64,000 nucleotides of DNA, from NCBI RefSeq assembly GCF_000017185.1, contig NC_009635.1, positions 62,001-126,000 on the forward strand. The letters are read 5' to 3'. The notes beneath the pieces are model-generated. The model was not told the DNA's origin. It searched no databases and saw nothing but the letters and a program-made list of their open reading frames with translations. Both the position numbers and the translations under genes were made by a program. Source of the stretch: Methanococcus aeolicus Nankai-3 (GTDB taxonomy: Archaea > AGJL01 > Methanococci > Methanococcales > Methanococcaceae). This document shows, piece after piece, positions 20,990 to 22,163 of this stretch. Each line of letters opens with the position of its first letter. Positions within the stretch are counted from its first letter, which is position 1.

Positions 20990-21184
20990 TTATTTTTTAT
21001 TACTATGTTTATTATTGTAATAAATTGGAGTCCATCTTAATTTTCTTGCGACTCTCTTTAATTTATAGTTTTTCTCACATTTTGAGGAACAAATAAACAT
21101 AACTGAACCATCTTTTTTTACGAACTTTTTACCAGTTCCTGGTTCTATGCTTTTTCCACAAAAATTGCAGGTTTTCCATTCCAT
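20990..21184 (-). CDS. rpl24e: Ribosomal protein L24e (eL24)
   Basis: This is a 64-residue zinc-ribbon ribosomal protein. CNFCGKSIEPGTG and ICSSKCEKNYKLKR supply the four cysteines (CX2C and CX3C) that bind zinc, and the basic tail contacts rRNA. It is third in rpl7ae-rps28e-rpl24e, the normal archaeal order. In several methanogens ndk follows next; here ndk is elsewhere, at 47610-48005. Start: ATG behind AGGTGAG. Confidence 0.93.
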   Translation of the reverse strand: MEWKTCNFCGKSIEPGTGKKFVKKDGSVMFICSSKCEKNYKLKRVARKLRWTPIYYNNKHSNKK

Positions 21185-21194
21185 CTAATCTCAC

Positions 21195-21422
21195 CTATCT
21201 TCTCCTTCCGAGAGCTTTCGCTTCTCTTTCGGTTTCTCTGAGCATAATAATGTCTCCTACTTTGATAGGACCTTTTATATTTCTTGTCAATATTCTTCCT
21301 GTGTCTTTTCCTCCTAAGATTTTACATCTTACTTGGAAAATTTCCCCAGTCACACCAGTTCTTCCTGTTACTTGAAGAACTTCTGCGGCTATTGCTTCTT
21401 TATAAATCATGTCATCAGACAT
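21195..21422 (-). CDS. rps28e: Ribosomal protein S28e (eS28)
   Basis: This 75-residue protein folds as an OB barrel of the small subunit. The conserved GRTGVTGEIFQVRCKIL and the C-terminal MLRETEREAKALGRRR are diagnostic. It lies 12 bases downstream of rpl7ae and 10 bases before rpl24e. Start: ATG behind AGGTGAT. Confidence 0.95.
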   Translation of the reverse strand: MSDDMIYKEAIAAEVLQVTGRTGVTGEIFQVRCKILGGKDTGRILTRNIKGPIKVGDIIMLRETEREAKALGRRR

Positions 21423-21434
21423 TCAATCACCTAA

Positions 21435-21788
21435 TTATGCCTTTAAACCGTTTATTTTTTCTACTAAGTCTTTTAAAGCATTTGCATCTTTTTCTGCGAT
21501 AATTGCTACTGCTGCTGTTGAAACTTCTAATCCAATAGCTTTACCTAAATCTTCTTTTGTTGCTATGTATGTGTATGGGATACCTTTTTCTTCACAGATT
21601 ATAGGTATGTGCGCAACAATTTCTTCTGGTTGAACATCTTTTGCTAAAACTACTAATTTTGCAGTTCCTCTTTCTACTGCTTTTGTTACTTCGTTTGCTC
21701 CTTTTTTAACTTTTTCGCTTTTTGAGAGCACTTCTGCTGTTTTTTCTTCCATTTCTTGTGGAACATCAAATTTTACATATACTGCCAT
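21435..21788 (-). CDS. rpl7ae: Ribosomal protein L7Ae (eL8), kink-turn binder
   Basis: This 117-residue protein binds kink-turns in rRNA, in C/D and H/ACA guide RNAs, and in RNase P. The core [27 protein letters not shown] is canonical. Start: ATG at 21786-21788 ([10 protein letters not shown]), because the strong ribosome-binding site GGAGG lies just before it; an ATG at 21806 would contain that site. It is the first gene of its operon. A structured leader lies upstream (21838-21960), which is notable because L7Ae can regulate its own mRNA in archaea. Confidence 0.96.
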
Positions 21789-21837
21789 AATAATGACCTC
21801 CTTCATTTTTTAAAAAAGATATTTTATCCGGATACCT

Positions 21838-21960
21838 ACACCATTATTACCATTTTATTATTGGTTTTAATAGTGTAGCCATGCCCACTCATATCATCGT
21901 GGTTATTCACTAATTTTTGGGCGAATGGGCCCAATTGTAATTAATGAATTAAAAGAGTGG
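21838..21960 (-). ncRNA. Structured 5' leader or small RNA upstream of rpl7ae
   Basis: On the minus strand this stretch folds into a long hairpin with three nested stems: CCACTC with GAGTGG (21955-21960 and 21885-21890), ATTCATTAATT with AATTAGTGAAT (21939-21949 and 21905-21915, one G-U pair), and TTGGGC with GCCCAA (21929-21934 and 21917-21922). A second imperfect stem-loop follows (21838-21876). A TATA box, CTATATATATGAC, at 21981-21993 would start a transcript close to the hairpin's 5' end, about 170 bases before the rpl7ae start codon. The strand is inferred from that promoter. No clear kink-turn was proven. Confidence 0.45.
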
Positions 21961-22163
21961 CTACTTCTGTATTATTTGAAGTCATATATATAGTTATGGT
22001 TCTTAGTGTTAAGTAGAAATTTATATATATGGCAACAATATTAATTATAATATATTACAATATATTTTAAATGTAATTATATTGTATTAATTATATAACT
22101 CTATAAAATAAAATACTCCCACTACTGTTGTCCATTTAATGGCGGTAATAATTTGGTGGTCCT

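Follow-up and report, generated by a model that had tools for sequence, protein, structure and literature searches.

A conserved kink-turn core in the l7ae leaders of Methanococcales: a candidate two-state feedback switch

The locus considered here raises the question of whether the long, structured leader of a ribosomal protein gene is a device by which the encoded protein controls its own synthesis and, if so, which part of that leader does the controlling. The gene is l7ae of Methanococcus aeolicus Nankai-3, situated within a window of 64,000 nucleotides (contig NC_009635.1, positions 62,001 to 126,000, forward strand), to which all coordinates below refer. A first-pass annotation of this DNA had described, between a TATA box and the l7ae start codon, a three-stem hairpin of about 75 bases and a second stem-loop, and had proposed that these make up either an autoregulatory leader or a separate small RNA. 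Kink-turns and kink-loops are the motifs bound by L7Ae. To our knowledge, few cis-regulatory RNAs have been recognized in Archaea, and fewer still are understood as alternative folds.

The leader precedes three genes, all on the minus strand, that probably form one operon, l7ae-rps28e-rpl24e. These genes and the promoter elements are as follows.

21435-21788, minus strand: l7ae (rpl7ae, eL8), NCBIfam TIGR03677, 157.2 bits against a cut-off of 134.6; the regulated gene and the predicted regulator
21195-21422, minus strand: rps28e, next after l7ae (NCBIfam NF003080, 122.7 bits)
20990-21184, minus strand: rpl24e, after rps28e (NCBIfam NF034186, 88.5 bits)
21985-21992, minus strand: TATA box TATATATA of the l7ae promoter, recognized by sequence
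21960-21967, minus strand: predicted transcription start zone, placed about 25-32 nt past the first T of the TATA box

The window leader is AT-rich. An in-frame ATG (21804-21806, minus strand) overlaps the Shine-Dalgarno (SD) sequence of l7ae, with the longest open reading frame beginning at 21806, and an automatic annotation could choose this ATG as the l7ae start. Upstream of the TATA box, an ACCAYAA-like stretch (21994-22000, minus strand), present as a loose pattern in all 20 l7ae promoters of the window's family, is perhaps a BRE.

As to the presence of structure, the first-pass annotation was right: the predicted folding energy of the leader on the minus strand (21792-21972) is -49.2 kcal/mol, while shuffled sequences average -31.1 (sd 3.8; z -4.75, 0 of 200 shuffles equal). 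The conserved core, however, is not made of the hairpins that it had noted, and its interval, otherwise correct in strand and coordinates, ended before element C and the SD sequence listed below. This became apparent from a comparison of genomes, all from the window's order. A protein search of 36 of these gave an l7ae match in 34, one of them only a distant paralogue, and the DNA upstream of l7ae was compared at 33 loci, 20 in the window's family and 13 in the sister family; the three genomes outside this set (two without a match and the one with the distant paralogue) are all incomplete (54-86%). Throughout the 20 loci of the window's family the leader follows one order, with diverged flanks: CCACUCUUUU, a link, ACCAYGAUGAUAYGAGUGGG, a second link, AUCCGGAU in most cases, then an A/U stretch, the SD sequence and the ATG. 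The respective features of the window are the following.

21951-21960, minus strand: element A, CCACUCUUUU, the putative 5'-terminal strand, whose CCACUC complements GAGUGG and whose CUCUUUU complements GAAGGAG of the SD
21905-21949, minus strand: insert hairpin 1, species-specific, seen in folds, separating element A from the kink-loop
21885-21902, minus strand: kink-turn/kink-loop core (site 1), CCAC-GAU-GA-UAU-GA-GUGG, a predicted L7Ae binding site
21836-21878, minus strand: insert hairpin 2, species-specific, seen in folds, between the kink-loop and element C
21826-21833, minus strand: element C, AUCCGGAU, which may be the non-bulged strand (Kt-n UCC-G-GA) of another k-turn close to the SD
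21812-21817, minus strand: U6 run, by sequence, downstream of element C and upstream of the SD; a possible termination or attenuation tract
21797-21804, minus strand: SD sequence GAAGGAGG, by sequence and folds, the pairing partner of CUCUUUU

The core has the sequence features of a kink-turn, namely a C-stem, a 3-nt bulge, tandem GA pairs and a loop (consensus CCAY-GAU-GA-UAY-GA-GUGG), and it is carried by 27 of the 33 l7ae leaders of the order, 20/20 in the window's family and 7/13 in the sister family. Searched genome-wide in the 36 genomes, a pattern for the motif matched at 26 places in 25 genomes, and 25 of these places lie upstream of l7ae; the reversed pattern, used as a control, matched at two places in the same 36. 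Two sister-family leaders (L023 and L024), whose inserts exceed the length of the pattern, were found in the comparison of the leaders and stand outside these 26 places. The single match away from l7ae (G035:C1:617504-617542) may be due to chance or may be another L7Ae target. Site 1 is unique in the window and in the window genome (a single contig of 1,569,500 bases), where a search allowing up to 3 mismatches gave no second copy that would point to a regulon sharing the element. A motif scan of genome contigs gave nine matches, of which six are Methanothermococcus l7ae leaders, probably of the same species as some of the compared genomes and not counted twice, and three are unrelated bacterial stretches. 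The register of the kink-turn is fixed by two kinds of variation in the sister family: one locus (L033) has the bulge AAU instead of GAU, and four (L021-L024) have the loop replaced by an NC helix, in which 36 of 36 cells are paired, with two-sided changes at four of nine pairs. In this register, 3b:3n of the upstream kink-loop is U:U. Model R1 aligned the window only partly (43.5 bits, in a wrong register across the inserts), missed most of the sister-family leaders and produced weak additional matches in some genomes (E 0.08-0.78).

The two large hairpins of the window species are species inserts in the links of this small core common to the order, and thus the first-pass annotation had picked out the insertions, with the conserved part lying between them. 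The second stem-loop (about 21836-21878) is real in the window species. The three-stem hairpin can form (closing stem GUAGCC/GGCUAC, 21875-21964, about 90 nt) but is not favoured in the full leader, and the three-way junction was rejected as a conserved structure: when forced, it gives -49.1 kcal/mol, 6.6 kcal/mol above the unconstrained ensemble (-55.7), and the two nearest relatives (L002 and L003) lack its closing stem, having CUAGCC but not GGCUAC in their leaders. The link between element A and the kink-loop measures 48 nt in the window, 47 nt in L004, which has its own, different hairpin, and 4-7 nt in the other 18 family loci, while the distance from the end of the kink-loop to the l7ae ATG is 96 nt in the window, 192 nt in L020, which has another insert, and 45-60 nt in 25 of the 27 motif loci; comparably long links are thus found elsewhere in L004 only (first link) and in L020 only (second link). 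Searched with short-word blastn against the other 32 upstream stretches, both inserts gave, among the matches listed, only stretches of 8-14 nt (best E 0.084). Their origin as copies of a genomic repeat was likewise rejected, as a search of the window genome (41 matches at E<=10) found, besides self, only short matches of at most 31 bases (best E 0.004). In the mechanism proposed below they would be tolerated loop inserts. The insert of L020 (L020:1310-1455, genome G034), which shifts the kink-loop upstream to the position given above, contains pieces that match 18 places in the sister genome G035, resembling a small mobile or dispersed repeat.

Element A is found in 20/20 loci of the window's family, as CCACTCTTTT (16), CCGCTCTTTT (three) or CCAACTCTTTT (one), and in 0/13 loci of the sister family. 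Its CCACUC begins 31-34 nt past the start of the TATA-like box in all 20, which probably makes it the extreme 5' terminus of the transcript. As CCACUC complements GAGUGG, the 3' strand of the kink-loop (with one G-U variant in three loci and one bulged A in L007), the element A fold and the kink-loop are mutually exclusive, and the leader therefore holds two conserved stems that share the GAGUGG strand, one with CCACUC and one with the 5' strand of the kink-loop. The motif, its conservation, its place and these complementarities are read directly from the DNA. Alignment A2 comprises 15 family loci out of 20, with L001, L004 and L020 omitted because they carry inserts and L012 and L015 because they closely duplicate others. 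Within it, 98.9% and 100% of the cells pair in the two stems, respectively; no pair has changed on both sides and there is one G-U variant, the competing stems being too invariant for covariation within the family to be informative.

Predicted folds of the free RNA favour the first of these stems: pairing of element A with GAGUGG has a mean probability above 0.5 in 17/20 loci (18/20 with two more 3' nucleotides), and the probability of the kink-loop stem is at most 0.27 in 19/20, with 0.83 in the window species. The bound state was represented by a folding constraint that forces the kink-loop and carries no L7Ae energy term. With the kink-loop so forced, pairing of element A with the SD increases in 20/20 loci (by at least 0.05 in 18; mean 0.13 to 0.63), and pairing of the SD increases in 18/20 (by at least 0.05 in 15; mean 0.63 to 0.85; Wilcoxon p 0.0003, which, the species being related, is not a test of independent cases). 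The SD pairing shows no appreciable change in L001, L003, L018 and L020 and a slight fall in L007. Shuffling the 10 nt of element A destroys its pairing with GAGUGG (shuffled means 0.00-0.17) and leaves its pairing with the SD in the forced state about equal (means 0.05-0.82), and from locus to locus between 0 and 42 of 100 shuffles match the rise in the latter upon forcing; this half of the proposal thus rests largely on composition, together with the conservation of UUUU. The combined behaviour, in 18 loci with 100 shuffles each, is reached by 0-4 shuffles in 17 and by 10 in L018, and, with 40 shuffles, by one in L001 and three in L020. In the window species, before the SD is transcribed, pairing of element A with GAGUGG stands at -44.7 versus -43.6 for the kink-loop, with the same order at 45 C. 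In the full leader, the kink-loop with element A on the SD (-55.4 kcal/mol) is favoured without protein by about 2 kcal/mol over CCACUC:GAGUGG (-53.4), and so the switch in this species would have to be kinetic, chosen during transcription.

We conclude that this is very probably a leader for feedback by L7Ae. The autoregulatory proposal of the first-pass annotation is thus upheld through the kink-turn in 27 of 33 leaders and the published autoregulation of l7ae in other Archaea, and not through the hairpins on which it was built. The mechanism that, on the fold predictions, we judge the best, at a probability of roughly 0.55, is a switch in which the leader of the l7ae-rps28e-rpl24e mRNA would take two alternative states and be sensed by L7Ae itself. 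In the ON state, the 5'-terminal CCACUC of the emerging mRNA would pair with GAGUGG. This would engage the kink-loop's 3' strand together with part of the anti-SD strand, and would leave the SD more accessible. In the OFF state, free L7Ae, in excess of its ribosomal and guide-RNA partners, would capture CCAC-GAU-GA...GA-GUGG as a kink-turn or kink-loop; CCACUCUUUU would be displaced, and its CUCUUUU would pair with GAAGGAG, blocking ribosome binding. L7Ae binding, the transcript start, the direction of switching and the effect on translation are what we infer from the patterns above, and excess L7Ae would in this manner probably shut off its own production through the leader.

Judging from modelled folds, a different anti-SD may serve the same purpose in the sister family. 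In the free fold of its seven kink-turn loci, a downstream GCCC(AUUU) takes up the GAGUGGG strand, wholly or in part. When the kink-turn is forced at 70 C, the loop CCUCC moves onto the SD in 7/7 (0.00-0.01 to 0.34-0.69), an effect matched by 1/60 to 11/60 loop shuffles, or, with the smaller number of shuffles, by 1/25 and 4/25. Little of it is seen at 37 C (bound 0.00-0.25), and in L030 the SD pairing then falls from 0.90 to 0.78. The kink-turn is absent from 6/13 sister-family loci. In four of these (L025, L027, L028 and L029), ACCUUCUU:AAGGAGGU forms an 8-bp hairpin covering the SD, and the other two (L031 and L032) keep only the CCUCC hairpin. We suggest tentatively, at somewhat less than even odds, a riboswitch-like switch sensing a protein, in which the 5'-terminal nucleotides of the mRNA would by turns disrupt the kink-turn and cover the SD, and which would have been rewired within one order: the kink-turn kept, the anti-SD swapped (CUCUUUU upstream versus CCUCC in the loop of a downstream hairpin), and, in one group of loci, a simple hairpin over the SD substituted for the kink-turn.

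How does this compare with known systems? In archaeal C/D guide RNAs, box C'/D' forms a kink-loop, and AUGAUGA...UGA of the leader resembles box C plus box D; unlike the former, the element has no guide sequence and no second box pair, and it sits in an mRNA leader. We take L014 to be the M. maripaludis-like locus, and its kink-loop, at -67 to -50, is to be set against a tested fragment of about 50 bp. That fragment was among the l7ae leaders found to be repressed by Sulfolobus L7Ae in Escherichia coli (Daume et al., 2017; PMC5539422), and a leader k-turn by which L7Ae represses its own mRNA has been described (PMC5539422, PMC6298567). With the l7ae 5'-UTR k-turn element of these papers, as described in the available text, the leaders considered here share an L7Ae-type kink-turn with the GAU bulge and tandem GA pairs; they may also share the expected unfolded state without protein and the shut-off of translation when bound. 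The published k-turns, however, lie very close to the SD, with direct occlusion proposed, whereas the most conserved kink-loop here lies 45-60 nt before the start in 25/27 loci, is near-invariant and overlaps a competing stem; high leader conservation is reported, in the accessible part of Daume et al., only for Sulfolobales (PMC5539422). The r-leaders of Eckert et al. (2020; PMC7247131), newly described for S15, eL15 and L4 of Archaea, are similar in being cis leaders of ribosomal protein operons predicted to bind the respective protein; the available text of that paper does not contain the term L7Ae and names no Methanococcales motif. Likewise, 'l7ae' does not occur in the main text, as available, of two M. 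maripaludis transcriptome papers (PMC10450193, PMC6705878). Among the literature matches listed, judged by title and abstract and chiefly from non-subscription sources, no description of an upstream, remote kink-loop or of a two-state layout was found. Autoregulation through the l7ae leader is thus already known, and the two-fold layout appears to be a new version of it.

Of the alternatives to the two-state switch, the most serious, even if we hold it to be unlikely, is direct occlusion, in which element C (UCC-G-GA) would combine with the SD strand (GA-A-GGAGG) into a second k-turn as the regulatory site, and the upstream kink-loop would only recruit or concentrate L7Ae. Site 1 is remote from the SD, while the SD-proximal candidate, of doubtful bulge geometry, is present in 24/33 loci: TCCGGAT is accompanied by TGAAGG at the SD in 24/24, five loci lack both, and four have TGAAGG without TCCGGAT, the last of these counts speaking against this alternative. 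The M. maripaludis experiment also fits direct occlusion, as about 50 bp upstream of l7ae conferred repression in E. coli (PMC5539422), and so does the M. maripaludis element of Huang et al. (2019; PMC6298567), who explained direct SD occlusion, since its 3b=C or 3n=G, as given in the text available, suits element C and not the upstream kink-loop, an assignment that is ours. Yet the five loci that have lost element C, perhaps one clade, have kept the upstream kink-loop, the bulge would by inspection exceed 3 nt in several species if the flanking A/U stem forms, and conservation is higher at site 1. These five loci (L008, L010, L016, L017 and L019) have neither AUCCGGAU nor the UGA that precedes the SD, perhaps through a joint loss.

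We consider it improbable that the leader acts by transcription attenuation, the kink-turn state deciding whether the polymerase stops at the U-run before the SD. A run of at least five U between element C and the SD region is present in 22/33 loci and, in the sister family, the hairpin GGGCAAU/AUUGCCC precedes it; however, the run is shorter in 11/33 loci, with only two U in L022 and L033, both of which carry the kink-turn, and in the sister family it is the fold without protein that resembles a terminator, the reverse of what repression by feedback would require. Still less probable is an effect on mRNA stability, in which a 5'-terminal CCACUC:GAGUGG hairpin would guard the 5' end until L7Ae binding exposed it to exonucleases: the position of element A at the predicted 5' end and its strong pairing in free RNA agree with this, but this would account neither for the UUUU conserved next to CCACUC nor for the loop CCUCC in the sister family. 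The other proposal of the first-pass annotation, a free-standing small RNA from the l7ae promoter (a guide RNA or an L7Ae sponge), has the long stable hairpins of the window species in its favour, and we give it hardly any credence, as these hairpins are not shared, the core keeps a constant spacing from the TATA box, is linked to the SD of l7ae and has a single genomic copy, and no Rfam family matches the leader on the minus strand. At the gathering threshold, Rfam identifies in the window only a tRNA, and on the minus strand the leader is empty even at E<=10, a result that bears on an H/ACA guide RNA (pseudouridylation pocket and ANA box) as well. A box C/D guide RNA was rejected by inspection, there being no paired C/D plus C'/D' guide layout and one kink-loop only, joined to the l7ae SD.

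The two-state switch, if true, would mean that L7Ae can control translation at a distance, by refolding the leader, and not only by sitting on the SD, and a better conserved site would be added for Methanococcus, upstream of the fragment so far tested there. The leader is short, it belongs to a group that includes genetically tractable methanogens, its protein ligand is well studied, and the model makes sharp predictions at the level of single bases.
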